This document shows, in pieces, positions 41,555-59,862 of a stretch of DNA of 64,000 nucleotides. Positions within the stretch are counted from its first letter, which is position 1. Every line of letters begins with the position of its first letter. This DNA comes from Lysobacterales bacterium (lineage in GTDB: Bacteria > Pseudomonadota > Gammaproteobacteria > Xanthomonadales > SZUA-38), in the NCBI GenBank assembly GCA_028285525.1, contig JANQOZ010000122.1, positions 1-64,000 on the forward strand, given 5' to 3'. The notes beneath the pieces were generated by a model. It did no database searches and was not told the DNA's origin. It saw only the letters and a program-made list of their open reading frames with translations. A program made the translations under genes and the position numbers.

Positions 41555-44500
41555 ATGAAAAAGTCCCGTTTTCTGCTGGTGCTGCTTTCACTGCAGCTCT
41601 GCTGCCTGTCGCCCGCCGGGGCGCAGGGGGTACCCAACATCTCGCGACCGGGTCAGGCGGGTGCGCTGCTGGCTGGACCGGTAGCCCCCGAGATGGGTCG
41701 GCTGGCGGTCATCGCCTGGCATGGCGACTATCTTTTCACCCTGCCGGAGATTCCGGGCGGCCCCCCGGGCGACTGGATTGTGCGCGCCTGGGATCTGTCG
41801 GATCCCGCCAACCCGAACCGCGTGGCGATCACGCCGTTCACCGGCGACAACGACGGCGACTCACTGGTGACCCGTCACGGCTTTATGGCCCACGGGTTTA
41901 TCAAGACGGGCAATATCCTCAGCTCCGGCCGCGCTTTTCGAGTGGACGGCAACACGCCGGTCGAAACCAACAACGTCAACTTTCGGATGCTGGGCTGGAC
42001 CCACGGAGGCATGAGCGTTCCCTGGGGTGCAACCAACTACTGGTCATACGGCGAAACCGACGAGCCGGCGGAGCTGTATCTGGATCTGCCCTACGGCGCG
42101 ACGCCAAACGCGGTATTCGATCCGGTTGGACAGACGGGCGTGATCGGCCATCCCTTTATCTTTGGCACCACGCTTTATTACGCTTCTGACCAGAGCCGCT
42201 CCGGCATCGCTTCCTACGACATCTCCGATCCGTCCAACCCCGTGCTGCTGGACGTGCTGACCCAGAACAGCGTCGGGGGTTACTGGCCCGATCCGTTCGG
42301 GTTGAACGGCCGGCTGTATTTCTTTTTCCCGCACGACAACCCCGAAGGCGGCTTTCAGGTGGTGGACGCCACCGATCCGACGGATCTTCAGCTGGTCGCC
42401 TCGGTGCCGCTCGCCGGCAATCTGAACTACGCGCAGTTTCAGGATGAGTTTGCGTTCAGCGAGCGCTACAAGATCGATATGCGCACGTTCGACGTGGTGC
42501 TTGAGCTTGATGAAGAGGCCAACTCACGCAGCGGTGAGCGCATCGATACCAGCCAGTGGCAGCTGCCGGTCGGCAATCTGATCGTCACAGGTGGGATCTA
42601 CATCAACGGCACCTGCTCGGTGCCCGGTGGCGGCACCCATTGCGGTACCGGCATGTCGATCTGGGTTCATCAGGAGACGTCGGACAATCGCGGGCCTTTC
42701 GTGGGCTACCACCGGCCGGCGGACGGCGAGACCGGCTACCCGACCGACTTCCCGATCCAGGTGCTCATCCACGAGACTCTCAAATCAGAGACCATCAACG
42801 GATCGACCGTTCTGCTGCAGCCGGTCAACGGCGGCAGCCTCGGCTCACCGCTTCAGACCGAGCTTTGGTTTTCATCTAACGACATCCTGTCGATCGTTCC
42901 GGATCAGCCGCTGGCCGACAACACCACCTATCAGGTCACTCTCGTTGACGGCGGGATCGAAGACGCGGTGGGCAACGGTATGCAGGGCTATTCCTTCACC
43001 TTCTCCACCGGCAGTGCCCTCAGCGGGAATGCCCGGCCCGAGATCAGCAGCGTCAGCACCAACGCCTCACCCGTGACGCCCGGCAGCTCGGTACAGGTCA
43101 GCGTGGCGGCCGTCGACCCCGACGGCGGGCCGCTGGAGTACCGCTTCGACTTTGGCGACGGCAGCACCCCAACGGACTGGGGTTCAGCGGCGCAGGTGAG
43201 CCACAGCTATGCGGAAGTCGGCCATTTTTCGATCTCGGTGCAGGTCCGGGATGCCCAGGCGGCGGTCGCTACCGGGACAACCGGCGTGGCGGTCCTGAAC
43301 AACTTCACGCCGGGCGACCATCGGCGTTCACGGCACCTGGCGCAGGCGCCCGACGGGCGGATCTGGGTGGTCAATCCGGACAACAGCACCGTCGCGGTGC
43401 TCCGGGCCGGCAGTCATCAGCGGGTTGCTGAGTATCGGACCTGTACCGACCCGCGGAGCGTTGCGTTCGACGCAGCCGGGCGTGCGTGGGTCAGCTGCTT
43501 CGACGTGGATCAGCTGATCGTCTTAGAAAGTGACGGTCGGCGGGTCGCGACCATCGATACGGGCTACGGCTCCGCGCCCTTTGCGGTCGTGTCGCGTTCG
43601 CAAAGCAACAGAATGCTCGTGACGCTGTACGGCAGCGGCGAGCTGGCGCTTTATGACGCAGCGGGACTCAGCGAACTGGACCGGCTGGCCCTGGGACCGA
43701 CCGCCCGCGCGATCGCTCTGGCGGACGGCGGCAATCGGGCCCTGGTCACTCGGTTTATCTCACCCGAGGATCGCGCGGAAGTCTGGGACGTCGCCGTTGC
43801 CGGCAACAGTCTGAGCCTCGATCGAACGATCACCCTGGCTCAGCAGTGGGGACCTGACGAACGTTTTGACGGTCGGGGCGTGCCTAACTATCTGGCCGCG
43901 GTCAGCATTACCCCGGACGGCGGCCGAGCCTGGGTAGCCGCCAAGAAAGACAACACAACCCGCGGGGTTTATCTGAGCGGCGAAGATCTGGACCAGGACA
44001 ACACGGTGCGCGCGATGGTCGCGCAGATTGACCTCGCCAGCGGCACTGAGCTCGAGGACCTGCGCCGTGACCTCGACAACAGCGAGCAGCCCAGCGACGT
44101 GGAGTTTTCGCCGCAGGGCGACTACGCGTGGGTCAGCCTGCAGGGCAGCAACGTGGTGCTGGTGATGGACACACTGATGATCGACGCCGGCTTTACCGGA
44201 GTTTCCAGCGTGATCTCGAGAATCGGGGTGGGCCTCGCGCCGCAGTCGCTGCTCCTGGTGCCCGGCACCGACATGCTCTTGACCCACAACTTTCTGGATC
44301 GGCAGGTCAGCCGGGTCAACGTCGACAGTCTTCTCAGCACCGGCAGTACTTCATTCAGCAGCTCAACTCGGGATCTGGTTTCCCGAGAGGCGCTGGCGGT
44401 GAACGTTAAGCGAGGCAAAGAGATTTTCTACAACGCCGCGGACGAGCGCATGAGTGGGGAAGGGTACATGACCTGCGCCACCTGCCATATCGACGGCGGC

Positions 44501-45907
44501 CACGACGGCCGGTCCTGGGACTTCAGCGGCCGCGGCGAGGGCGTGCGGAACACAACAGATCTTCGCGGTCGAGCCGGTACCGGGCACGGCCTGGTGCACT
44601 GGAGCGCAAACTTCGACGAAATTCAGGATTTCGAAAACGATATTCGCGGCGCCTTCGGAGGGACCGGTTTCTTAACGGACCCTCAGTTCAATCAGACGAG
44701 CAACACGCTCGGTTCGCCGAAGGCGGGCTTGAGCACGGAGCTGGATCAGCTGGCGGCCTACGTTGCGTCGCTGGACGCTCAGTCGATTCCCCGATCGCCT
44801 TATCGCCAGAGTGACGGGCGGCTGACCTCTGACGCTGAGCGCGGGCGCGATATCTTCAGCAGCCAGGGCTGCGCCAACTGCCACATCGGCCCCGAGCGGG
44901 TGCAGCGGACCGACCTGACGCTGGCGCTGGAGGATCTGGGCACAACAGGCACCGATTCGGGTGGTCGCCTGGGCGGCAATCTTGCCGGAATCGACGTTCC
45001 CACGCTGAACGGCATCTGGGACACGCCGGCTTACCTTCATGACGGCTCGCAGCCGACGCTTGAACTGGCGCTGCTGGGCACCGGTGATCGCGCGTGGCAG
45101 GCGGAGCAGGGAAACTTGAGCGGCAGCACCGATATTCGTTTTCAGTCCCACTGGGCGGTGGACGACCTGGCGGTGCTGCGCGGCGGCGAGTACGTCAATA
45201 TGGATGACGGGGCGGCGGTGACCTTTGACGTGAACGTTGGCGGGGCAACGGATGCAACGCTCACACTGCGCTATCACGCCAACTACGGAGACGCCAACCT
45301 GACGCTGACAATCAACGGTTCAAATCAGTCGGTACAGGCGCCGCGCACGCTGGCCAACGACTGGATGTTCCGCCAGTGGGGTGAAATGAGCCTGCCGATT
45401 CAGCTCAGCGGCGGCAGCAACACCGTGCGGGTTCGCTACGACAACGGCGGCTCGTTTGGGCTGGACGAGATCCGGGTCAGCGATACGGCCAGCCAGCTCA
45501 GCCGGTCAGCGCCCCACAGCCGGGTCGCTGATCTCAGCGGCGGAGACTTTGGCGATCTACTGGCGTACCTGCAGCAGTTGGACGCTCGACCAGACACGCC
45601 GCTGGCTGTCCAGATCACCGCGCCCGGCGTCGATTTTGGGGTCAGCGGGACGGTCAGCGTCTCCGGAACGGCAAGCGGTGCTGTGGATCAGGTGGAGGTT
45701 GCGTTGGGCAGCGGCCCGTTTGTGCCGGCCAGCGGGACCGATAGCTGGACGGCAGCCGTCAGCGCTCAAGGTCTGGAAGAGGGCTGGCAGATCATCACCG
45801 TGCGAGCCCACGACAACCTGACCGGAACCTGGGCGGAAACGCAGCGTCAGGTCAATCTGGGCGCCATCGGGCCGCCGGCTCTGATCTTCGGCGACGGGTT
45901 CGAATAA
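41555..45907 (+). CDS. Large secreted dihaem cytochrome/beta-propeller protein with DGFE tail
   Basis: A 1450-residue exported protein. In order: signal peptide (LLVLLSLQLCCLSPAGA); an N-terminal propeller-like domain (about 25-370); an Ig-like Big_5 domain near 400-490 (DNTTYQVTLVDGGIEDAVGNG); a PKD domain (PEISSVST to TGVAV, about 495-590); a YVTN-type propeller (590-920); then two cytochrome c domains with CATCH (974-978) and CANCH (1106-1110), resembling MauG/dihaem peroxidase modules. A carbohydrate-binding-like beta domain (about 1170-1318) is inserted into the second cytochrome. A last Ig-like domain ends LIFGDGFE. Role unknown; an extracellular redox or peroxidase function is inferred. 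Confidence 0.84.
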   Translation: MKKSRFLLVLLSLQLCCLSPAGAQGVPNISRPGQAGALLAGPVAPEMGRLAVIAWHGDYLFTLPEIPGGPPGDWIVRAWDLSDPANPNRVAITPFTGDNDGDSLVTRHGFMAHGFIKTGNILSSGRAFRVDGNTPVETNNVNFRMLGWTHGGMSVPWGATNYWSYGETDEPAELYLDLPYGATPNAVFDPVGQTGVIGHPFIFGTTLYYASDQSRSGIASYDISDPSNPVLLDVLTQNSVGGYWPDPFGLNGRLYFFFPHDNPEGGFQVVDATDPTDLQLVASVPLAGNLNYAQFQDEFAFSERYKIDMRTFDVVLELDEEANSRSGERIDTSQWQLPVGNLIVTGGIYINGTCSVPGGGTHCGTGMSIWVHQETSDNRGPFVGYHRPADGETGYPTDFPIQVLIHETLKSETINGSTVLLQPVNGGSLGSPLQTELWFSSNDILSIVPDQPLADNTTYQVTLVDGGIEDAVGNGMQGYSFTFSTGSALSGNARPEISSVSTNASPVTPGSSVQVSVAAVDPDGGPLEYRFDFGDGSTPTDWGSAAQVSHSYAEVGHFSISVQVRDAQAAVATGTTGVAVLNNFTPGDHRRSRHLAQAPDGRIWVVNPDNSTVAVLRAGSHQRVAEYRTCTDPRSVAFDAAGRAWVSCFDVDQLIVLESDGRRVATIDTGYGSAPFAVVSRSQSNRMLVTLYGSGELALYDAAGLSELDRLALGPTARAIALADGGNRALVTRFISPEDRAEVWDVAVAGNSLSLDRTITLAQQWGPDERFDGRGVPNYLAAVSITPDGGRAWVAAKKDNTTRGVYLSGEDLDQDNTVRAMVAQIDLASGTELEDLRRDLDNSEQPSDVEFSPQGDYAWVSLQGSNVVLVMDTLMIDAGFTGVSSVISRIGVGLAPQSLLLVPGTDMLLTHNFLDRQVSRVNVDSLLSTGSTSFSSSTRDLVSREALAVNVKRGKEIFYNAADERMSGEGYMTCATCHIDGGHDGRSWDFSGRGEGVRNTTDLRGRAGTGHGLVHWSANFDEIQDFENDIRGAFGGTGFLTDPQFNQTSNTLGSPKAGLSTELDQLAAYVASLDAQSIPRSPYRQSDGRLTSDAERGRDIFSSQGCANCHIGPERVQRTDLTLALEDLGTTGTDSGGRLGGNLAGIDVPTLNGIWDTPAYLHDGSQPTLELALLGTGDRAWQAEQGNLSGSTDIRFQSHWAVDDLAVLRGGEYVNMDDGAAVTFDVNVGGATDATLTLRYHANYGDANLTLTINGSNQSVQAPRTLANDWMFRQWGEMSLPIQLSGGSNTVRVRYDNGGSFGLDEIRVSDTASQLSRSAPHSRVADLSGGDFGDLLAYLQQLDARPDTPLAVQITAPGVDFGVSGTVSVSGTASGAVDQVEVALGSGPFVPASGTDSWTAAVSAQGLEEGWQIITVRAHDNLTGTWAETQRQVNLGAIGPPALIFGDGFE

Positions 45908-47353: not shown

Positions 47354-49243
47354 TTGACAACGCAGTTTCAAATCCGCTCTTGGCAGGTGGACGTCGAGGC
47401 GCTTCGCCTCTGTCGACCTGAGGGGGAGGTGACGCTCGAGCCACGAACCATGGCGCTGCTGGCGTATTTCTGTCGGCATCCAGGGATCACCGTCAGCAAA
47501 GACACCCTGCTGGACGAAGTCTGGGGCACCGAGCACTTCTCAGATTCTGTCGTGACGCGCGCAGTCTCACTGCTTCGCACGGCGCTTGGCGACTCGCGCG
47601 AGAACAGCAAGTACATACAAACGGTTCCGAGGCGTGGTTACCGCTTCATTGCGCCTGTGGAGGCGCTTGACGGACCCCCGACAGCATCTCCCAGCGTTCA
47701 GCCGGCGAGCCCGCCGTCACATAGACGTTGGCCGTGGGGCTTGGCGGCGATGATTGTATTGGGAGTTACGGGGTGGCTACTCACCACCTCACCTGAAAAC
47801 CCCGGGCCAGAGGCGCAGGCTCACCCGCTGCAGGGGCTCAAGTCGATGGCCGTCGCGCCCTTTGAGGCGCCGGTCGGAGAAGACGCTGATCTTCCTCTGT
47901 CCAGCCTGCACTTTGACGTTGCCGCGCAGCTGGCGCGCCTTGAATCGCCTCGCATCTATGTGCTGTCTCAGGAAGAGCTCGGAGACGGGGTCACTACGGC
48001 TGCCGGCCAAGCGGGTGCCGACGCGGTGCTAAGCGGTCGGCTCTATCGCCAGGTCGGCGAGACCGCGATCGAACTCACGCTGCTGAGGATCGCCACAAGA
48101 GAATTAATCTGGTCATCGGAGTACAAAATCGACCAGTCACAAACTTTCCTCACGCGACAGCAGATGATCCGGGATCTGGCATCGTTGACCCGCGCCGGCC
48201 TGGCTCGCTGGGAGTCGCGCGAACAGGACGAGACGATCAACGCCGAGGCGTATGAAACGTACCTGGAAGCGCTGTGGTTCTGGCGGCAGCGTACGCGGGA
48301 AAGCCTGGTGCAGGGACAGCAGCTTTTTGAAAAAGCCGTGCGGGCAGATAAGGGTTTCGCTGACGCCTACGCGGGCCTGGCGCTCAGCCACCTGGCCCGC
48401 GTCAGCTACGGCTACGAGGACCGCGAGCAGGGCTACGAGGCTGCCGCAGACGCGGCGCGACAGGCCATCGCGCTCGACCCGGAGAACCCCTGGGCCCTGA
48501 CTGCTCAAGGTGAAATTGCTTTCCAGCGCGACTGGGACTTCGAACGTGCGGCCCAGCTTTTTGAGGCAGCGATCAACGCTTCACCCAGCGCCGTTGATGC
48601 TCACCAGTACCTCGCCGAGATCCAAAGCATTCTGGGGCGACACCCGCAGGCACTGCAGACCATTGAAGCGGGGCTTTCCTTGCGTCCCGCCAGTCCGCTG
48701 CTGCTGGGCATCAAAGGGATGGTCCAAACGGCTGCGGGCGAATACGGCAGCGCCAACGCCACCATGGAGGCGCTGGCGAAAAAGGGTCCAAAATTTGACT
48801 GGTACTACTGGTATTGGTCGTTTGCACAGCAGCGCAGCGGTGATCACAAGCGTGCGCTGATGATGCGTTTGGCTCGGTATGAAAGTCGCCTGTCGGCGGA
48901 AGAGTTTGCGGCGATGGAAGACGGCATTGAGCGTGGTCGAGGGGATGTGTTTTGGGAGTATCAGGTCAATCGGCTGCAGGCCGGGAATGGGCCTTCCTAC
49001 GCGGTAAATGCATGTCTGTTAGCCGAGGCGTTGAGCGCTCTGGGGCGCCCGGACGAAGCGATGAACGCGCTGAAATTGGCTGTGTCTCTTCGCGGAGAGG
49101 CGTTTCCGATGTTCCGCATCAGCCCGCAGTTTGATGCACTCCGTGATAGGCCCGATTTCCAGTCGATCTTGAGCGAATATCGACTTCCGCCCAGCAGCGC
49201 AGGCCTCTCTCCGGCTACTAAGGCGTTTCAAATCCGTCGCTAA
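47354..49243 (+). CDS. CadC-like winged-helix membrane regulator with TPR domain
   Basis: A 629-residue protein. The N-terminal OmpR/CadC-type DNA-binding domain (residues 1-103) includes LEPRTMALLAYFCRHPGITVSKDTLLDEVW and YIQTVPRRGYRFIAPV. One transmembrane helix (WGLAAMIVLGVTGWLL, about 128-145) is followed by a domain resembling the predicted TolB-like region of this family and then TPR repeats rich in Ala and Leu. It likely senses a periplasmic signal and activates genes directly from the membrane. The only start is TTG without a clear Shine-Dalgarno. Its last 26 bases overlap the convergent FG-GAP gene. Confidence 0.83.
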   Translation: MTTQFQIRSWQVDVEALRLCRPEGEVTLEPRTMALLAYFCRHPGITVSKDTLLDEVWGTEHFSDSVVTRAVSLLRTALGDSRENSKYIQTVPRRGYRFIAPVEALDGPPTASPSVQPASPPSHRRWPWGLAAMIVLGVTGWLLTTSPENPGPEAQAHPLQGLKSMAVAPFEAPVGEDADLPLSSLHFDVAAQLARLESPRIYVLSQEELGDGVTTAAGQAGADAVLSGRLYRQVGETAIELTLLRIATRELIWSSEYKIDQSQTFLTRQQMIRDLASLTRAGLARWESREQDETINAEAYETYLEALWFWRQRTRESLVQGQQLFEKAVRADKGFADAYAGLALSHLARVSYGYEDREQGYEAAADAARQAIALDPENPWALTAQGEIAFQRDWDFERAAQLFEAAINASPSAVDAHQYLAEIQSILGRHPQALQTIEAGLSLRPASPLLLGIKGMVQTAAGEYGSANATMEALAKKGPKFDWYYWYWSFAQQRSGDHKRALMMRLARYESRLSAEEFAAMEDGIERGRGDVFWEYQVNRLQAGNGPSYAVNACLLAEALSALGRPDEAMNALKLAVSLRGEAFPMFRISPQFDALRDRPDFQSILSEYRLPPSSAGLSPATKAFQIRR

Positions 49244-51482
49244 ACGTACGATCGGACCCCGGTACTACCGTGATCTGAAATTCCTGTTCTTCCGATACGT
49301 TGATTCCACCATTCGCGACACCACCATCGTCGACCACTCGAACGGAAAAACGGGTTGTGCCGCTGGTATCCGGGGCAGCCTCGTACGTCAGGGCGCCTGC
49401 CGGAGTGATCGCCGGCGGAGCAATTAGCAACGTACCGTCCCAGTCCAACACTTCAAACGCTGGTCGCTGATCGAGCTCAAATCCAGTGCCGGGGTCAAAG
49501 GCAGCCCAGAAAACAACTTGCTGAGGGCCGTCGTTTTCAATGGTAGGCGGAGGATCGACTGCGGTGAAGGAAGGCCGGTCGTTCACGTCCTCGATGATCA
49601 CCGAAATACCAACTAGGTGTTCGTCGCCGGCCAGCCCGCCAAGAGAATTAACGGCAAAACGTATGTCTCTGGATGTGGGCGTTATTCCTCGCTGCCCGTC
49701 CCACATTCGGGCCACCAGCGCTCCCGGTTCACCCGAAAAATTTGGCCCCGGCCGAAATCGGAGTTCGACGTCAGGGGTTAGGATCAGTGCGCTTGTGTCA
49801 GCGAGTTCGTTGGGTATCCAGAACCAACTGCCGCCGGGCATGCGGTATTCCCAGTTACCCTGCCAAATCTCAGCAAAATTGGAGATGAGGGCGACGCCAG
49901 CGATCGGATCGGAGTCTGAGTAAATGCCGGCGAACAGGTCTTGTACGCTCAAACCATCTGACATGCTGTCCTCGAGACCGTCTGGGAGCAGTGCCAGGTT
50001 GGATTCGGCTTTAGGTGAAGCATTTCCGTAGAGGAGAAAGACCGTGCCGCCAGCGGTCGCAAGGTCCGACGTGAAAGGGCTCCCAATCAGTAGGTCATCA
50101 ATCCCGTCACCGTTGACGTCACCAACTTCATCAATGGTTGGTGGCTGAACGCTTTCCGAGCGCTCAAGCCGCAGGCCGTTCGATCCGTTGAGCGTTTGTA
50201 GAAAAAATTCAGAGCCGAACGAGTCTTTGCGCCCAAAAATCAGGTAAACGTACCGCGAAGAGTCAGACGTCAGAAGCAGATCTCTGAGTCCGTCACCGTT
50301 GACATCCCCGACGGACGTCAATTCTTTGCCAATGGATTCGCGCTCGTTTAAGAGCGTGATGACAAACCCGTTTTCGCCATCGATAGAAGACAAATCCAAC
50401 GACGCGGGAAACGGTGCCGTGGACCCATATATCACATAGACATTTCCATCATCTTCTGTCCCGCCTCCGGGTTCGCTCACCGCAAAATCGTCGATGCCGT
50501 CCCCGTTAAAATCCCCGAGCCCCGTGGTTGCTTTTCCTAGCTCTCCAGATCGGGTTGCGCCAATGATGCTAAACCCGTTCTCTCCGTTGAGAGCCAAGTC
50601 ACTGATTCCGACGCCACTTCCGGATGGAACACCAAAGACAACGTAAGCTGCGCCGACGTTAAAGGCTGGGTCGGCGTCGAAATCATCAGCCCCGACGACG
50701 ACGTCATCTCGGCCGTCGCCATTGATGTCGCCTATGCCTCGAACGGAATTTCCCAGTTCTGAGAATCGCTGCGAACCGAGCAGCTGATATGCCTCTCCAT
50801 CCACAGCAAGGCTAAGCAGGAGGTCGCTCTGCGGACGGTTTGAGCTGCCGTACACCACAGCACCCATGCCGGAATCCAACACGTAGCGGGGATCTCCCAG
50901 CACAAAGTCATCAATGCCGTCGCCATTGAAGTCGCCAGCGGAGGCGAGGTCTCGGCCAACGCTGTCGGACGGCTGGCGAGGAAACACTCGAAAGCCCTGC
51001 GGTGGGCGAACGCCAGTTAAGGTCGTCGGGAAACCGCGACTTTCATTGCCGAACACCACGTAAATTGATCCTTGCGTATTCAGTCCGCCGAAATTGCCAA
51101 CCGCAAAATCCGCAATGCCGTCGCCATCAATGTCGCCGATACCTCTGGCTGCGCCTCCTAAAGGCCCTGGCGCCGAAATGCTGCGGAGCTGCGCTCCCGC
51201 GGGTGAGGAAGGACTGATGTCCCGTGGAAGATCCGGCGCACCGAAAATCAGGTAAGTAAGGTGCTGCTCGACAAGTCCCCTTGAACGTATGGCGATGTCA
51301 GCAAAACCGTCCGCATTGATGTCACCAAGGCCGCCAAGTTTTATGCCGGCAAATCCGAACTCGATGTTTCCCTGGAAAATAAACCCCTGCTCACCGGTCA
51401 GACTAGGGAGGAAAATGGTGTTGTTCTGTGGCTGATTCCCTGCCGTTTGCAGGAGCAAAAGGAGCGTTGGCACGATCAACAA
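49218..51482 (-). CDS. Secreted seven-bladed FG-GAP protein with DGFE tail
   Basis: A 754-residue exported protein. The TTG start is preceded by AAGGA; the N-terminus MLIVPTLLLLLQTAGNQ is a short signal-like segment. Seven FG-GAP repeats are visible: GDINADGFADIAI, GDIDGDGIADFAVGN, GDFNGDGIDDFVLGD, GDINGDGRDDVVVGA, GDFNGDGIDDFAVSE, GDVNGDGLRDLLL and GDVNGDGIDDLLIGS, the number expected of an integrin-alpha-like propeller. About 250 residues of cadherin-like or Ig-like sequence follow, ending RTFSDGFETP. Base composition is lower in GC than in flanking genes. A calcium-binding surface protein is likely; function unknown. Confidence 0.83.
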   Translation of the reverse strand: MLIVPTLLLLLQTAGNQPQNNTIFLPSLTGEQGFIFQGNIEFGFAGIKLGGLGDINADGFADIAIRSRGLVEQHLTYLIFGAPDLPRDISPSSPAGAQLRSISAPGPLGGAARGIGDIDGDGIADFAVGNFGGLNTQGSIYVVFGNESRGFPTTLTGVRPPQGFRVFPRQPSDSVGRDLASAGDFNGDGIDDFVLGDPRYVLDSGMGAVVYGSSNRPQSDLLLSLAVDGEAYQLLGSQRFSELGNSVRGIGDINGDGRDDVVVGADDFDADPAFNVGAAYVVFGVPSGSGVGISDLALNGENGFSIIGATRSGELGKATTGLGDFNGDGIDDFAVSEPGGGTEDDGNVYVIYGSTAPFPASLDLSSIDGENGFVITLLNERESIGKELTSVGDVNGDGLRDLLLTSDSSRYVYLIFGRKDSFGSEFFLQTLNGSNGLRLERSESVQPPTIDEVGDVNGDGIDDLLIGSPFTSDLATAGGTVFLLYGNASPKAESNLALLPDGLEDSMSDGLSVQDLFAGIYSDSDPIAGVALISNFAEIWQGNWEYRMPGGSWFWIPNELADTSALILTPDVELRFRPGPNFSGEPGALVARMWDGQRGITPTSRDIRFAVNSLGGLAGDEHLVGISVIIEDVNDRPSFTAVDPPPTIENDGPQQVVFWAAFDPGTGFELDQRPAFEVLDWDGTLLIAPPAITPAGALTYEAAPDTSGTTRFSVRVVDDGGVANGGINVSEEQEFQITVVPGSDRTFSDGFETP

Positions 51483-51503
51483 GGTTTCGTTCCTTTTTTT
51501 CGG

Positions 51504-53921
51504 CTATCCGTTAAGTTGAAGGGCGTGTCGCCAGTGCGGCAGCCGCGTCGAGAGCATGTGTTGGCTTCTGACCCATTCCCGAAGCCTCTGTCCCGATTCC
51601 TGCCGGCGTTCGAGGTTGCTTGTATGGGCGACCAGAGCCTCGGCCCATGCTGACGGTTCGGCCGGCATCCGTTGAATGTGGGGGATGTTCCGATAGGCCG
51701 TCACATCGCTTGTAATGACCGGGACGCCAAGTGCTCCAAACTCAAGTACTTTGAGAGGGCTTTTGCACTGGCCAAACGCCGAGTCAGTGAGCGGAGCAAT
51801 GGCGACATCCAGCTTTAGCGACGCCAGCCGGCTCGGGTAGGCATGGAAGGCAACCGGTTCGACGACCTCCGACACGTAGGGTCTGAGTTCTTTTGGACAC
51901 GGGCCGAAAATCACCCAGCTTACGTGTTTCGCGAGCGACCGGATGACGGGGCTAACAAGCGCCAGGTCGCCTTCGTGATCGTTCGCCCCGGCCCAGCCAA
52001 CGCGGATTTTTCCAGGGCTGTCACAAGCCCTGTGCGTTGCCAGGTGCCCCCAAAGCGAATCGGGCAGGGCATTCTGGATGACGTAATGTCGTTTTCCGTT
52101 GGGTGGAATTTTCTGTTCCAGTTGGCTTGTCGTGTAGATCAGCACATCTGCCAAAGCCAAAGCCTGCGAAAAACGATCGGCAAAGTCCGGCATCGCCTTT
52201 GCCAGTGCGCTTCCCTCGGGCAATTGCAGCCAATTGTCGTCAATGATCAGATGGAGGCTGGCATGCTGGGCCAACCATTCGAGCTTTTCGAGCCCCCAGT
52301 CAGACAGCAAAGGCAGGGACAAGACTCGAGTTGAAGAGCTGATGACGGCCGGATCAAGTTCGTCCCATTTTTCGAGTAGCGCCAGGCCGAATTGGCAACG
52401 GTCAGAGCGAATCTGGTCCGATAATGCCTGGAGGGGCCAGCGTATCCGGTATTGTGAGGGCGCCCAGCGGTCCCGCATCAGGCCAATGCAGCCGGGGCGC
52501 TGTTGCGTCGATCTCAACGGAGCGCTGCGATTAGCGCTTGAGCACAAATCATCCAGATGCTGCCGATACCGAAATCCGACTTCGGTGGTGCTGGGCCATT
52601 GGGTATTGGCGAGCCCTGCCTTGAGCTTCTGGATCTTTTCGATGGTGAGCGCGTTAATGGCCTCGACCCACGGCTCAATGCCGTTTGGATCTAGCAACCA
52701 ACCGTCGACGCCATGGCTAACGCGGTCGCCCATTGCCCCTAACCGACTGGCGAGCACTGGCCGGCCCATGGCCCAAGCCTCAGAAAGAATCAGCGAGAAA
52801 GACTCTTCCACCTGCGACGGGACAAGAACGACATCCACCTCGGCGAGCCGCTCGGCAAGTGCCTCGCGACGGTACGGTCCATGAACATGAATACCGGGCC
52901 GTCCAGAGAGCGTCGATAGACTGCCCTGAAAGCCACTGACGTGCAGCGAAAACCTTGACGTATCCAGGCGAAAAGCGATCGCTTCGACCAGATCAGCGCC
53001 CTTCGCAGAGAGTCCGCCACCAAAATAGCCGAGCCTAATACGATTATCGTTCCGATCATTGGCCTGCGATGGGAATGTGTCTACTCCGTGAACCAAGGTC
53101 TGAATTCTCTGACCCGGGACAGTTGGAAAAGCAGATTGCAGCTTTTTGCGGCTGAACGCTGAGGGAACAAGTATGAGTTGGCACGCTTCCAGCACCTGTC
53201 GGATCATCTCATTTCGGGCGTTGATAAGCGCAAGCGGACTTGCGATGCCTTCGATTCCATAGCTAACCAAACAGCGGTGGCACCTTTGGTCGGGAGCGCA
53301 ACGTGCGCGCTGACAGGCTAACCGACTGTTCCACTCCTGCTGCGTATGTATCGGGCACCAGAGGAAATGGTCGTGGACGCTGATCGCTGTGGGGATGCCT
53401 TTCGCTGAGGCAATCATTGGCAAGAGCAGCGAATCCCAGTGCTGCAGGTGATGAAAGTGAACCAGGTCCGGGCGAGTCTCATCGATTAGCCAGGCCAAAA
53501 AAGCTTCGCTTGCCGGACAACTGAGGTCAGCGCCTAGCCCGCCAATTTTCGTCCGAGGTCTGATCAGTTGGCGGTCGAACACCAAATGTTCAAAGTGTGC
53601 GCTGCCAAGCCTGAGCACCCCTGGCCCGGGATCGAGGATGCCGGGGGTCACCAGGATATGGTGATAGCCATCCGCGGCGGCGAGGAGGTTTCGGGTTGCT
53701 ACCTCTGTGCCGCCAGTTTCGTAGGCGCTATGCATGAGGTGGAGCGCTATTTTTGTTCTGGAACCCGGCGTTCTTCCCCGGGAAGGCACCCTCATCGACT
53801 CTGGGAAACTCGCGTGTTCGATGCCGGCCAGGGCGCTGCGAACTTGCCTAGCAATAAACTCCCTAAGCCGATCAGAGTGGCTAGTTGGGTTGCTCTTCAA
53901 ATCCGTCGCCAAAGAGAGCAA
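51504..53921 (-). CDS. Double glycosyltransferase (two GT4/GT1-like domains)
   Basis: An 805-residue cytoplasmic protein with two glycosyltransferase B-fold units. Domain 1 (about 55-450) has an initial GGTEVATRNLL, VHDHFLWCP, a Cys-rich insert CQRARCAPDQRCHRCLV that could bind a metal, and the nucleotide-sugar motif ESFSLILSEAWAMGRPVLAS. Domain 2 (about 480-800) has KIRVGWAGANDHEGD and KSPLKVLEFGALGVPVITSD. The likely product is a glycan on the surface. The gene lies in the AT-richer locus, directly downstream of and overlapping a DGFE-tailed protein gene by 41 bases. The TTG start is uncertain; translation could begin after the upstream stop. Confidence 0.8.
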   Translation of the reverse strand: MLSLATDLKSNPTSHSDRLREFIARQVRSALAGIEHASFPESMRVPSRGRTPGSRTKIALHLMHSAYETGGTEVATRNLLAAADGYHHILVTPGILDPGPGVLRLGSAHFEHLVFDRQLIRPRTKIGGLGADLSCPASEAFLAWLIDETRPDLVHFHHLQHWDSLLLPMIASAKGIPTAISVHDHFLWCPIHTQQEWNSRLACQRARCAPDQRCHRCLVSYGIEGIASPLALINARNEMIRQVLEACQLILVPSAFSRKKLQSAFPTVPGQRIQTLVHGVDTFPSQANDRNDNRIRLGYFGGGLSAKGADLVEAIAFRLDTSRFSLHVSGFQGSLSTLSGRPGIHVHGPYRREALAERLAEVDVVLVPSQVEESFSLILSEAWAMGRPVLASRLGAMGDRVSHGVDGWLLDPNGIEPWVEAINALTIEKIQKLKAGLANTQWPSTTEVGFRYRQHLDDLCSSANRSAPLRSTQQRPGCIGLMRDRWAPSQYRIRWPLQALSDQIRSDRCQFGLALLEKWDELDPAVISSSTRVLSLPLLSDWGLEKLEWLAQHASLHLIIDDNWLQLPEGSALAKAMPDFADRFSQALALADVLIYTTSQLEQKIPPNGKRHYVIQNALPDSLWGHLATHRACDSPGKIRVGWAGANDHEGDLALVSPVIRSLAKHVSWVIFGPCPKELRPYVSEVVEPVAFHAYPSRLASLKLDVAIAPLTDSAFGQCKSPLKVLEFGALGVPVITSDVTAYRNIPHIQRMPAEPSAWAEALVAHTSNLERRQESGQRLREWVRSQHMLSTRLPHWRHALQLNG

Positions 53922-54846
53922 TCGATGTAATGCCGATGTTGTCTGACGTCGGGCTTCCCAGTGGTCCAGAAAGCGAGGCTGAAAGGGCAGCAGTTCCGGG
54001 GCCAGTAAACGGCTGTCCTAGGCTTCCGCTTACATCGATGGTGATCAGTAACGAATCTTCGGGAGGCAGATCGATTTCAGGAATGAGAATCCGTTCCGAG
54101 TTAACGTCAATATCGGGAGCGACACATTCGTCGTTGGACAGAAGGCTGCATTGAGCCGACTCGATGAGAACTGTCTCGGAGGCGTGGATCAACAGGCGGT
54201 GAGACAGGAGTTCTCCGGAGCCCCGATTGTCGATTCGGACCGAAACCCTGGTGGGTTTTCCGGGAACGATCGCGCGGGGCAGCGTGATCGAGATGCCCAC
54301 ATCCGGAATCAGGTCGTTATCGATGTTGATGAAGGTTTCCTGATCCTGGGTTCCCCCCTGTTCGTCGATTACCTGAATCTCGAAGCGCTGATCTCCGTCG
54401 TCCTCCCCGTCGTTTAGCCCGACAATCTCAAAATTAATGCCCGTACAATTTGCACCGGGCGGAAAGGACTTGAGTGGGTACAAGACCTGGCCCTCGCTCG
54501 GATTGCTTGACCTGAGCTCATAGGTCAGTTGGCGGTCGGCTGTTCCCGTCAGAAAGAGCGTTTGTCTGATCGATTCCCCGTCTTCCGAGACCGCAATGTT
54601 GTCTCCGCCTCGAATAGAAACACCAAGTGGGTTGGAAGGAAGACAGCCGCTGGGATCATGTCCCAGGGGCAACGTTGATTCACTGATAGCGGCGTAATCC
54701 AGCCCCCAAGGTGGGTTTGACGGTGGGGAGTTTGCGACGAACTGATCTAGCTCTGCATGATCCAAGGCGCCACTGGGATCCGCTATGCTGACGGTTAGCC
54801 CAACGACAACGCCGTCAACGACCCTTTTCCCTAATCGGATTCCCAT
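53881..54846 (-). CDS. Unrecognised beta-rich protein with DGFE-type tail
   Basis: A 321-residue protein of unknown family. The ATG has AAAAGGA at correct spacing. The first 40 residues (MGIRLGKRVVDGVVVGLTVSI) contain no clear signal peptide. It continues with LTGTADRQLTYELRSSNPSEGQVLYPL, an acidic GLNDGEDDGDQRFEIQVID and repeated hydrophobic strands (IPDVGISITLPRAIVPGKPTRVSVRIDN), probably CARDB- or Ig-like sandwich folds. It ends IALFGDGFEEQPN. Upstream, the frame stays open for about 25 codons with no start, so a lost N-terminal segment is conceivable. It shares a locus with the glycosyltransferase and radical SAM genes. Confidence 0.66.
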   Translation of the reverse strand: MGIRLGKRVVDGVVVGLTVSIADPSGALDHAELDQFVANSPPSNPPWGLDYAAISESTLPLGHDPSGCLPSNPLGVSIRGGDNIAVSEDGESIRQTLFLTGTADRQLTYELRSSNPSEGQVLYPLKSFPPGANCTGINFEIVGLNDGEDDGDQRFEIQVIDEQGGTQDQETFINIDNDLIPDVGISITLPRAIVPGKPTRVSVRIDNRGSGELLSHRLLIHASETVLIESAQCSLLSNDECVAPDIDVNSERILIPEIDLPPEDSLLITIDVSGSLGQPFTGPGTAALSASLSGPLGSPTSDNIGITSIALFGDGFEEQPN

Positions 54847-54915
54847 GCTATTCCTTTTGCTTGAATCGCGACGGAACCTGTCGCTCTGACGGAGGATGTT
54901 GTAAAACGTACCGTA

Positions 54916-56274
54916 GTGAATTATTCCGCGTCAAACCCAATGTTCCGAAGGCGTCATCAGGGCGTGACGACGATGGTAGCGGCTCGCCCAGGAGCTGTAC
55001 CGCGCGTTTTCTATGGTCCGACTGTCAACGATTCCTTTTGTCGGGATCACGGGAGTGATCCTCAGCATGTCGAGCCGGTAAGTGGGCCGTTTCCGGATGT
55101 TCCAACGCAGCTCCCATCGGCTCTGATTGCGGCAGTCGAACTCGCCAAAGGCAGTGATTTTGTTGGACTTGAGCTTGCCGGAGAGGTGCCCGAGCACAGT
55201 GATTTTGTCGAGTGGTTGGCTGGCGAATTGGCGAGCTTCGAAAAATGCCTCTGGATCAACGGCCGCCGTTTCACACCCGCGCCTTGTCAGTCCAGCGAAG
55301 ACTGGCAGAATGCGTACGTGCTCAAACGGCTTGAGACGCTCCGTTTGGTCCACGAGCCAGTATCAGCGTTGCCTAGAGTACTGGCTATCACCGTAAAGGC
55401 TGAGAAGTGCTTCGCGTCATGCCGTTTCTGCCCTCAGCACCTGGACCCTGATCGTACCCGCGCGAGCGAGCTATCTCACGAAACCCTGAACCGGATCCTT
55501 GACGGCGTTCCTGAAGATTCGCGGATCTGGATCAGGCTCGGCATGGACGGAGAGCCGCTAAATTTTCCTGGCATCGTCCCGATCATCCGAACGATTCGAG
55601 CAAGGCGCCCTATGGTGAGGATTGAAACCGCCACTAACGGGTTGCTCCTCAACGAAGATTGGTACCAAAAACTCGCTCGCGCTGGACTCGATCATTTGTC
55701 GATTAGTGTCAACGCACCGACCCGAGACGATTACGCCTGGTTTTCCGGGCTGGACGGTTTTGATCGTCTGGCTGAGGCCTTGCCGCAGCTACCATTGTGG
55801 CGGCAGCGTGGCCGCGCAATTCCATTGGTCACCGTCAATTTACTGAATGTTCGGCGATGGGCTAAGCGTCTGCGGCCCGCAATTCGCTGGCTCGACCAGT
55901 GTGTCGATCGCGTGGATCTGACTCACGTTCAGTTCGTTGATGACAAAGAGCTCGAGAACCTTGATCCGCGACGCGAGGCGGTCCGATCGTCGGTCGCTCG
56001 ATGCACGTTTCTCAACAACGTCATGACCATCGATTGTGAAGGCAGGTTGAACATCTGCTGCGCAACTGAGTTTTCAAGCGACGCCGCGCCTGAGCTTGGC
56101 AACGTCCATCAACACACGATCGGACAGCTATGGCGGTCCGAGACGTATACCCAGTTGCGTGAACGCAATCGCCAAGGCCGGGCCGTGATTCCGGCTTGCC
56201 AGAGGTGTAAGGTCAATTGCCAAACCGCAACTAGAGATGCGCTGATGAAAGCGGCAGCGGTCGAGTTTGGGTAA
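54916..56274 (+). CDS. Radical SAM protein with SPASM-type C-terminal cluster
   Basis: A 452-residue protein (from GTG 54916; ATG codons at 54940 and 54973 are alternatives). The 4Fe-4S motif CFASCRFC (Cys165, Cys169, Cys172) opens the radical SAM domain, with GMDGEPLNFP and later ETATNGLLLN as typical strands. The C-terminal part holds Cys in RCTFLNNVMTIDCEGRLNICC and CQRCKVNC, the SPASM-like auxiliary cluster pattern used by peptide-maturing and other enzymes. The N-terminal 150 residues are unrecognised. It is divergent from the DGFE-tailed protein gene, with 69 bases between them. Its substrate is unknown. Confidence 0.84.
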   Translation: MNYSASNPMFRRRHQGVTTMVAARPGAVPRVFYGPTVNDSFCRDHGSDPQHVEPVSGPFPDVPTQLPSALIAAVELAKGSDFVGLELAGEVPEHSDFVEWLAGELASFEKCLWINGRRFTPAPCQSSEDWQNAYVLKRLETLRLVHEPVSALPRVLAITVKAEKCFASCRFCPQHLDPDRTRASELSHETLNRILDGVPEDSRIWIRLGMDGEPLNFPGIVPIIRTIRARRPMVRIETATNGLLLNEDWYQKLARAGLDHLSISVNAPTRDDYAWFSGLDGFDRLAEALPQLPLWRQRGRAIPLVTVNLLNVRRWAKRLRPAIRWLDQCVDRVDLTHVQFVDDKELENLDPRREAVRSSVARCTFLNNVMTIDCEGRLNICCATEFSSDAAPELGNVHQHTIGQLWRSETYTQLRERNRQGRAVIPACQRCKVNCQTATRDALMKAAAVEFG

Positions 56275-56385: not shown

Positions 56386-57483
56386 TCAGCCCTCAAGCAG
56401 CTTGAGAGTATGACAGGCGATCGAACGGCACTCGTCAGCATGGAGGATCAGCACGGCAACTTTGCTTTGATCGCTGGCCAGGTTGACCGGTAACGGTGGT
56501 GGATCATCGGGGGTCGGGGCAAGCGAGAGGCCGGGCAGCGGCAAGTCTTTCAGGACCTGCCCGACCAGCCACAGGTGGTGTTCACCCACGCCGCCGCTGA
56601 ACACCAGGGCGTCGACGCGTCCGAGGACGGCGAAGTAAGCGCCAAGGTATTTGCGGATTCGATACACGTAGGTCTCGACAGCGTGAGTCGCCGCCTGATC
56701 GCCGGCCAGCATGCGGGCGCGGATCTTGCGCATGTCGGCGTCTCCGCAAAGGCCGAGCAATCCGCTCTCTCGATTGATGATGGCATCGAGTTTCTCCGCG
56801 TTGATCGCCTGTGTGCGAAGCAGGTGGGTAAGCAAGCCGGGGTCAACGTCGCCGGCGCGGGTTCCCATCACCAGCCCTTCGGCCGGCGTCATGCCCATGG
56901 AGGTGTCGACACTCTGGCCTTGTTTTATGGCCGTGGCGCTGGCGCCATTGCCCAGGTGGAAGGTGATGAGGTTAAGCGCCTGAGGCGCTTGCGCCAGAAA
57001 AGACGAAGCGTCCAGCATCAGCTGCTCGTGAGAGATGCCGTGAAAACCGAAACGCCTCAGTCCATGTTCGTGGGTCAGCGATGCGGGCAGCGCGTAGCGA
57101 CTCGCACAAGCGGGTAGCGTGGCGTGAAAGGCCGTATCAAAAACGGCTACCTGAGGAAGCTGGGGCCAGACTTCTCGGCAGGCCTGGATGGCGGCCAGAT
57201 TGACCGGATTGTGGAGTGGGGCAAAGGTCGAAGCGGCCTCGATGTTGCGAATGACGTCATCATCCACCAGGACGGGCGTCGTCAGCCGGGCGCCGCCGTG
57301 CACGACCCGGTGGCCGACGGCCGTAGGCGTGGGTTGTCCGTTGAGCTCGCTGAACATCCGGTCCAGGGCGGCGTTGATCTCACCCTGGGTTTCCAGCGTC
57401 CGGCTGAACAGCTCCGAACCATCGTCGCCGTGGATTGAGTAGCGAAGAGTGGAGCTTCCGGCGTTGACGACGAGCACACTCAC
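56386..57483 (-). CDS. ackA: Acetate kinase
   Basis: A 365-residue acetokinase (typical length about 400). The N-terminal VLVVNAGSSTLRYSI is the phosphate-binding start, VGHRVVHGGARL the substrate loop, FHGISHEQL with catalytic region, HLGNGASATAI and FSGGVGEHH near the end. It interconverts acetyl-phosphate plus ADP with acetate plus ATP. The start is GTG. It lies 15 bases after the phosphoketolase gene, so acetyl-phosphate from phosphoketolase would be used directly for ATP synthesis. Confidence 0.92.
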   Translation of the reverse strand: MSVLVVNAGSSTLRYSIHGDDGSELFSRTLETQGEINAALDRMFSELNGQPTPTAVGHRVVHGGARLTTPVLVDDDVIRNIEAASTFAPLHNPVNLAAIQACREVWPQLPQVAVFDTAFHATLPACASRYALPASLTHEHGLRRFGFHGISHEQLMLDASSFLAQAPQALNLITFHLGNGASATAIKQGQSVDTSMGMTPAEGLVMGTRAGDVDPGLLTHLLRTQAINAEKLDAIINRESGLLGLCGDADMRKIRARMLAGDQAATHAVETYVYRIRKYLGAYFAVLGRVDALVFSGGVGEHHLWLVGQVLKDLPLPGLSLAPTPDDPPPLPVNLASDQSKVAVLILHADECRSIACHTLKLLEG

Positions 57484-57498
57484 GGCTGCTCGGCTGCG

Positions 57499-59862
57499 TC
57501 AGTAGGGCCAGCGCCAGTTGCGATATTCGGGCTTGTCGATGCCGTGTTCATGGGCGTATTCGCGGGCGTCGATGCGCATGTCCTTGAGCGTGTCTTTCAC
57601 ATGGGCGCCGGCAACGTGCAGTTCCGGCAGCCGATCGATCACGTCGATTGCCAGGCTGAAGCGATCGATTTCGTTGGCGATCGCCAGTTCGAGCGGCGTG
57701 TTGATGTTGCCCTTTTCCTTGTAGCCCCGGACATGCAGATTGTCGTGGTTCGTGCGCCGATACGCCAGGCGATGGATCAGCCACGGGTACCCGTGAAAGT
57801 TGAAGATCACCGGCCGGTCGATGGTAAACAGGCTGTCGAAGTCAGGGTCCGAAAGACCGTGCGGGTGTTCGCCCGCCGGCTGCATGCAGAACAGGTCTAC
57901 CACGCTCAAGAAACGAAGCTTGAGATCCGGAAAGTGCTCGCGCAATAAAGCCGTTGCCGCCAGCGCTTCCTGGGTCGGGATATCGCCGCAGCCGACCATC
58001 ACAATGTCGGGTTCGCCGCCGTGATCGTTGCTCGCCCAGTCCCAGGTGCTTATCCCTTTCTCGAGATGTTTGGCGGCCTCATCAATGTCGAGATACTGAA
58101 GGTGCATCTGTTTGTCGCAGACGATCACGTTGATGTTGTCGGTGCTACGCAGGCAGTGATCCGCTACGCAGAGCAACGAGTTGACGTCGGGTGGCAGGTA
58201 GATCCGGGTAACCTCGGGCGCCTTGTTCACAACCACGTCCAGAAAGCCCGGGTCCTGATGGGTGAACCCGTTGTGGTCCTGCCGCCAGACGGTTGAGGTA
58301 ATCAGCAGGTTCAGCGATGAAACCGGCGCGCGCCAGGGGATCTCGCGGCTGATGTCCAGCCACTTGGCGTGCTGGTTGTACATGGAGTCGATGACGTGGA
58401 CAAACGCTTCGTAGGTGGCAAAAAAACCGTGTCGCCCGGACAGGACATACCCTTCGTACCAGCCTTCCAACGTATGCTCGGACAACATCTCCAGGACCCG
58501 CCCGTCGGTCGCCAGCTCGCCACCGTCTTCGTCTTCCGGCAGATAGTCGGCGAGCCAGAGCTTTTTGCTCACGTCGTAAATCGCGTCGAGCTTGTTGGAG
58601 GTGTTTTCGTCAGGCCCAAAAACCCGAAAGTTGTCCATGTTCCGGGCCAGGATGTCCCGTAGAAACGCTCCCAGCGGTGGCGTGTTCATGGCGACGTCGT
58701 CAGCGGGTCTGGCAACCTCAATCGCGTAGTCGCGGAAGTTTGGCATGCGGAGCGCCCGTCGAATCAGGCCGCCGTTGGCGTGCGGGCTCGCGCTCATGCG
58801 CTTTTGACCCTGCGGGGCAAGCGCGCGCAGCTCGGCAATCAGTCGCCCGTCAGCATCAAACAGCTCCTCAGGCCGATAGCTCCTCAGCCAGTCCTCGAGC
58901 TGTTCCAGGTGCGCGGGGTTGTCGTGAATCCCGCCCAGGGGGACCTGATGGGCCCGCCACGATCCCTCGACCTTGCGCCCGTCTACCTCTCTGGGGCCGG
59001 TCCAGCCTTTGGGCGTTCTCAGGACGATCATCGGCCACCGACCGCGGGTCACCTCGCCAGCTTGGCGGGCCGTTTGCTGAATGTCGCGGATTCTGGCGTA
59101 GCATGCGTCGAGCGTCGCGGCCATAGCCTGATGCATGGTTGCCGGTTCGCTGCCCTCAACAAAATGCGGCTCCCACCCGTAGCCGCGAAACAGCGCTTCG
59201 AGTTCCGTATGGGGGATGCGCGAGAGGATCGTGGGGTTGTTGATCTTGTATCCGTTCAGGTGAAGGATTGGCAGCACAACGCCGTCGCGCATGGGGCTCA
59301 AGAACTTGTTTGAATGCCAGGAGGTGGCGAGCGGCCCGGTCTCCGCTTCGCCGTCGCCCACCGCAACGACCACCACCAGATCAGGGTTGTCAAAGGCCGC
59401 ACCAAAGGCGTGAGAGAGGCTGTAGCCCAGTTCACCTCCCTCATGAATCGACCCGGGCGTCTCCGGGGTGCAGTGACTGCCGATCCCGCCGGGAAAAGAA
59501 AACTGCTTAAGGAACCGCTTCAGGCCCTCCTCGTCCTCCGACATATTGGGGTAGATCTCAGAATACGTTCCCTCGAGATAGACGGGCGCCAGGACACCCG
59601 GCGCGCCGTGGCCTGGTCCGGCCAGGAAAATGGCGTTCAGGTTGTGCTCCCGAATCAGCCGATTCATGTGCACATACACAAAAGACAGGCCTGGGCTGGC
59701 TCCCCAGTGTCCGAGGAGTCGCCGCTTAACGTGCGCGGCGCTGAGCGGTTCTCTGAGCAGCGGGTTGTCGCGCAGGTAGATCATTGCGGCACCCACGTAG
59801 TTGCAGGCCCGCCAGTAGGCGTCGATCAGCGTGGTTTCGTCCTGACTCAGGATGTCGCTCAC
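57499..59862 (-). CDS. xfp: Xylulose-5-phosphate/fructose-6-phosphate phosphoketolase
   Basis: A 787-residue thiamine-diphosphate enzyme of full length. The family signature [25 protein letters not shown] and the ThDP-binding [14 protein letters not shown] are present, with the later [10 protein letters not shown] motif and PYRNWRWPY-like C-terminus. It cleaves xylulose 5-phosphate (or fructose 6-phosphate) with phosphate to acetyl-phosphate plus glyceraldehyde 3-phosphate (or erythrose 4-phosphate). GTG start with AGGAG. Operon with acetate kinase. Confidence 0.94.

Follow-up and report, generated by a model that had tools for sequence, protein, structure and literature searches.

Probable pairing of an exported Ig-like protein with a flagellin-type glycosyltransferase in a recently acquired locus of an uncultured Lysobacterales bacterium

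An uncultured Lysobacterales bacterium has recently acquired a pair of adjacent genes whose products are probably an exported Ig-like protein and a flagellin-type enzyme that attaches sugars to that protein. The exported protein is p321, and the enzyme is a two-domain glycosyltransferase (GT). Both are encoded in a stretch of DNA of 64,000 nucleotides, here called the window. Comparison with related loci makes it moderately likely that p321 and GT are a cognate pair, GT being a flagellin-type cytoplasmic protein O-glycosyltransferase dedicated to the p321 encoded in cis. To our knowledge, no protein glycosylation system is known in these bacteria. If this assignment is true, both the enzyme and the substrate of such a system can be named, and there are lineages without flagellin in which a flagellin-type GT has a different surface protein as its partner. 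It would also provide a short candidate site, D-P-[S/T]-G, of which a related protein has as many as 16 copies.

The pair is part of a block of four open reading frames (ORFs) at 49218-56274 of the window (Table 1). A preliminary description of this DNA had singled out these four genes by their lower GC, and both their coordinates and their composition have been confirmed. GC over 49-57 kb is 0.55-0.59 in 1-kb windows, compared with about 0.60-0.66 for most other DNA of the window. Consistently, GC3 of the four ORFs is 0.58, 0.64, 0.59 and 0.61, as against 0.757 ± 0.040 in 34 further long ORFs of the window. A genome of the same genus (G001) shares the left flank of the block (43.5-49.256 kb) at 79% DNA identity. 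No G001 DNA matches to the right of 49256, where unrelated catabolic genes stand in G001, and the four-gene block is missing at the corresponding site. Because G001 has different genes to the right, only the left border (49256) can be placed. Composition and absence from G001 at this site therefore give the block a foreign look. The earlier suggestion that these genes were acquired is supported by both observations and by the presence of the closest p321-GT pair in another family. A clean insertion with target-site repeats was ruled out, since no such repeats and no 12-mer common to both boundary regions were found. At 56386-59862 of the window, an acetate kinase gene adjoins a phosphoketolase gene, next to a P-type ATPase gene; these genes are of normal composition, yet they have no DNA match in G001.

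Table 1 Features of the four-gene block, in window coordinates
Feature	Position	Strand	Description and basis
FG-GAP protein, 754 aa	49218..51482	-	exported-type, C-terminal FSDGFETP; ORF call, Pfam
DGFE codons of FG-GAP protein	49227..49238	-	
Two-domain glycosyltransferase (GT), 805 aa	51504..53921	-	Pfam and homologues
p321, 321 aa, candidate acceptor	53881..54846	-	exported-type; beta-rich model (low confidence); homologues in G096 and G062
DGFE codons of p321	53896..53907	-	within the overlap with the GT frame
Radical SAM/SPASM protein, 452 aa	54916..56274	+	divergently transcribed; PF04055, PF13186; alignment with relative

GT has two GT-B-type halves, in agreement with the two domains of the preliminary description, and PF13692, PF13439 and PF13524 score above the Pfam cut-off. 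The GT4-type half covers residues about 60-440, and the C-terminal half, which belongs to a family found at flagellin loci, covers residues about 480-801. No signal peptide is seen in GT, and a solved-structure search with GT returned generic GT4 enzymes. An overlap of 41 bases with the p321 gene had been described. It requires translation of GT to begin at the most upstream TTG, but later in-frame starts exist, and the overlap is uncertain because the start codon is uncertain.

As judged from sequence comparison, the C-terminal half of GT is homologous to GTs encoded beside flagellin. It is 29-41% identical across 52 loci (20 class-level and 32 order-level). FliC lies within the fetched stretch in 16 of the 20 class-level loci of this family, and in 11 of them it is 400 bp or less from the GT domain; 11 of the 32 order-level loci also have FliC. 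In a phylogenetic tree, the flagellin clade is split from the rest with full support, and the window GT, which has a long branch, groups with the pair of another family (f7), but only weakly so (support values 84/28 and 89/78). The window GT itself is not beside flagellin. Flagellin domains are encoded on contig C30 of the source genome and the window lies on contig C9, where the neighbour of GT is p321.

Flagellin glycosylation genes usually adjoin the flagellin gene, often together with methyltransferases (PMC4875605). In the fgt1/fgt2 locus of Pseudomonas syringae, Fgt1, which is encoded upstream of fliC, transfers rhamnose to serine (PMC3927599). The p321-GT locus resembles such loci in the homology of the C-terminal half to GTs adjacent to fliC or fliD, Fgt1 itself being outside the comparison. 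It also resembles them in the position of GT beside its presumed acceptor, in its foreign composition, and in the methyltransferase gene that adjoins GT in related loci. In contrast, the candidate acceptor is an Ig-like exported protein, and most genomes with such a version of the locus have no flagellin. Unlike the flagellin-locus GTs, the window enzyme consists of the GT4 and C-terminal halves only, and the N-terminal GT2 domain found in its closest homologues is missing.

The main rival explanation is that GT makes a surface polysaccharide or a lipopolysaccharide side chain and that the exported neighbours have nothing to do with it, being mere cargo of a surface-variation region. Enzymes of polysaccharide synthesis typically have GT4-type domains. 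The NCBIfam scores of GT are mixed and all far below cut-off, and GpsX, a two-domain Xanthomonas enzyme (GT2 plus GT-B), acts in polysaccharide production (PMC3364877). However, there are no polymerase, flippase or nucleotide-sugar genes within the four-gene block, kin of the C-terminal half adjoin flagellin across the class, and the same kind of exported neighbour recurs in several families. We regard a role of GT in polysaccharide synthesis as unlikely.

The recurrence of the pair argues for a cognate relation of GT with p321. p321-GT pairs are found in two genera of family f7 (G096 and G062), in each of which a p321 homologue lies immediately upstream of a GT homologue and a TylF-type O-methyltransferase gene follows. 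The GT homologue of G096 is 38% identical over residues 58-804. p321 is 25-26% identical, in the aligned parts, to the GT-adjacent proteins of G096 and G062, and its identity to its counterparts in general is only 19-26%. An N-terminal segment is common to p321 and these homologues (MKLSVRKKIANGLVL... versus MGIRLGKRVVDGVVV...).

In other Lysobacterales lineages, a small exported protein adjoins a GT of the C-terminal-half family in place of flagellin. These partners belong to different domain families: they are mostly of the DUF11 or Calx-beta type, the latter also with Big_1, and have DGFE-like tails, or they have DUF1554 and no tail. When DGFD, NGFE, NSFE, SGFE and SSFE were allowed in the search, DGFE-like tails were found in 11 ORFs in 542 kb of 32 GT loci, and all of these ORFs adjoin GT or lie within its gene run. 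They span five genera of families f2, f3, f8 and f9. Related genomes do not count as independent observations, so that the effective number is about five lineages in addition to the window. A flagellin N-terminal domain was searched for in 23 genomes and was found in none of the 14 outside f1 and f2 that have an identified exported partner. Flagellin is present in the source genome (on another contig), in G236 and in the flagellin-locus genomes. Therefore, GT cannot serve flagellin in these 14 genomes, within the limits of draft genomes. The case for pairing is one of adjacency, which is not proof of substrate, and the compared loci, all from draft genomes, are not fully independent. The low identity of p321 to its counterparts, the diversity of domain families among the partners, the weak placement of GT in the tree and the lack of nucleotide-sugar genes in the block also weigh against it, as do the short signal segment of p321 and the restricted occurrence of its D-P-[S/T]-G motif. 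A literature search returned nothing on DUF11-glycosyltransferase pairs. The FG-GAP gene lies 21 bases downstream of GT on the same strand and is probably co-transcribed, and its product may be a second substrate or a passenger. No FG-GAP-type gene is seen beside GT in the related loci whose genes were listed.

p321 has an N-terminal hydrophobic segment, which is short for a signal segment and contains an Asp, and two D-P-S-G motifs. It carries two probable Ig-like beta domains; its structure model is beta-rich but of low confidence (pLDDT 41) and too poor for comparison with known folds, and a solved-structure search returned nothing for p321. The G096 and G062 homologues have runs of D-P-T/S-G-G. 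A screen of 180,669 residues in 18 stretches, made on predicted ORFs of which some are spurious, found D-P-[S/T]-G in seven ORFs: 16 copies in L076, three in L100 (the f2 counterpart), two in p321 of the window and one in each of four others. A run of the motif is also present in L077. The tandem form occurs in three of 393 genomes, two of which carry these loci. The f8 and f9 partners lack D-P-[S/T]-G. The small DUF11-type partners of f8 (L111, L103, L104, L117 and L118) have Gly-Ser/Gly-Phe motifs, for example GSGF and SGGF, near both ends of the mature protein, and these are possible alternative acceptor sites.

These features allow a mechanism to be proposed. GT would act in the cytoplasm as a nucleotide-sugar-dependent O-glycosyltransferase of the flagellin-locus type and build a short glycan on Ser/Thr of newly made p321. 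D-P-[S/T]-G, in the segment that precedes the Ig-like domains, is the best guess for the site, and glycosylation would precede export. Cytoplasmic glycosylation of p321 is proposed because of the analogy with flagellin systems. The GTs of serine-rich repeat adhesins and the autotransporter heptosyltransferases are likewise encoded beside an exported adhesin-like protein and act before export. GT resembles them in adjoining the gene of an exported adhesin-like protein, and its predicted action before export is the same. However, there are no accessory Sec genes in the block, Pfam gave no heptosyltransferase family match, and the acceptor families differ. A broader proposal is put forward tentatively, namely that in a Lysobacterales branch of the flagellin-type GTs, flagellin has been replaced by Sec-exported Ig-like proteins, mostly of the DUF11/Calx-beta type and with DGFE-like tails, and that these enzymes glycosylate D-P-[S/T]-G or similar Ser-Gly sites. 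Such enzymes and their partners may constitute a class of glycosylation systems that is dedicated to exported proteins, is so far undescribed and persists in lineages without flagellin.

The fourth gene encodes a divergent radical SAM protein with SPASM-like cysteines, as had been read from the sequence. Both of its domains score above the Pfam cut-offs (43.5 bits for PF13186, cut-off 21.5), and C165-x3-C169-x2-C172, C363, C381-C382, C428 and C431 are conserved with the sole relative found. This relative is 33-35% identical and is encoded in another Lysobacterales genome (G002; MAG JASJDM010000021.1). The protein resembles SPASM maturases in having CxxxCxxC and a SPASM domain. Unlike them, it scores far below every NCBIfam equivalog cut-off (best TIGR04317, 59.2 bits versus 380), has no precursor peptide gene beside it and yielded one relative only. 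A RiPP-type precursor beside the radical SAM gene was ruled out, since its distances to p321 on one side and to ackA on the other leave no room: the free space amounts to about 70 and 110 bp, and the small ORFs in these gaps overlap longer genes. A defence-system library gave only weak viperin-like matches.

The preliminary description had proposed a module that makes and modifies a surface protein and had suggested a search for the same neighbourhood in other genomes. This proposal is supported for the p321-GT pair, which recurs in relatives of f7, but not for the radical SAM gene, homologues of which are found in two of 398 genomes of the order, the source genome included, and in none of the genomes with related GT loci. 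A single module of all four genes would have the radical SAM enzyme modify p321 or the FG-GAP protein by epimerisation, a cross-link or similar and GT decorate it. Low GC3 is common to all four genes, none of which stands at this site in G001. The radical SAM protein has an intact SPASM domain, and the only relative found also follows the gene of an exported, repeat-containing protein. However, this neighbour has neither a DGFE tail nor similarity to p321, and there is no GT homologue beside the relative. Together with the narrow distribution of the gene and the lack of room for a separate precursor gene, this makes a single module improbable.

It is also doubtful that the radical SAM enzyme modifies the sugar of GT by dehydrogenation, epimerisation or dehydration of the carbohydrate. 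The only match in a solved-structure search is BtrN, a radical SAM dehydrogenase whose substrate is an aminocyclitol. This match covers a short stretch, in the C-terminal domain only, and is weak (E 3.5e-4); the structure model of the protein (pLDDT 36) is unusable for comparison with known folds, and the locus of the relative is devoid of a GT homologue. Sugar-tailoring enzymes are nevertheless common in flagellin glycosylation islands (PMC4875605). The p321-GT pair does not seem to include the radical SAM gene, which in the proposed mechanism would be a neighbour of similar composition. In G002, an exported protein of 546 residues, in which an acidic repeat occurs three times, is encoded 110 bp upstream of the radical SAM relative on the same strand (L099:5998-7638), and it is a candidate substrate.

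The two DGFE tails that had been described are real and read FSDGFETP in the FG-GAP protein and FGDGFEEQPN in p321. FxDGFE greatly exceeds chance expectation in the source genome, with 66 matches compared with one for a reversed-pattern control, and 73, 77 and 39 sites in three relatives of the same family. At least one site is found in 165 of 200 genomes of the order, with a patchy distribution of 0 to 77 per genome. The DGFE tail thus occurs order-wide in exported proteins. It is not peculiar to this locus, tells little about it and calls for an explanation of its own. Modification of the surface protein through its C-terminal region, as suggested earlier, is not supported, since the p321 homologues beside the closest GTs have no DGFE tail and the tail is found genome-wide. 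The suggested partnership of the radical SAM protein with DGFE proteins also fails. Its homologue is absent from G001 and G003, which have 73 and 39 FxDGFE sites, respectively. A role as DGFE maturase was ruled out by this phyletic distribution, and the tail does not depend on the radical SAM gene.

Like PEP-CTERM and GlyGly-CTERM sorting signals, DGFE is a short motif at the extreme C-terminus of many exported proteins. In contrast to these signals, neither a transmembrane segment nor a basic cluster follows it: among the 40 distinct sites that were read, FxDGFE lies 20 residues or fewer from the C-terminus in 33, which leaves DGFE outside the PEP-CTERM-like pattern of a motif followed by a hydrophobic helix and a basic tail. 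No processing enzyme was found, and a search of one literature collection returned nothing on the DGFE tail. A further difference is that FxDGFE directly follows an apparent signal peptide in four of the 40 sites (for example L007, L027, L028 and L047 among loci L001-L050). The same short tag can thus stand at either end of a mature protein, and no known system was found for that. Across families f1-f12, some Lysobacterales genera have plentiful FxDGFE (20-77 sites) and close relatives have none, so that it should be possible to search for the machinery that handles it by phyletic profile. Within the part of the window conserved in G001, a 1450-residue exported protein (41555-45907) with Big_5, PKD, cytochrome-c-like and CBM-like domains ends in IFGDGFE. 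A 690-residue protein of the source genome (L063:12633-14705; contig C9, about 74.6-76.7 kb) ends in LFGNGFE, and the tails of GT partner proteins include NSFE, SGFE, SSFE and DGFD. The tag therefore tolerates variants, and the DGFE counts are lower bounds.
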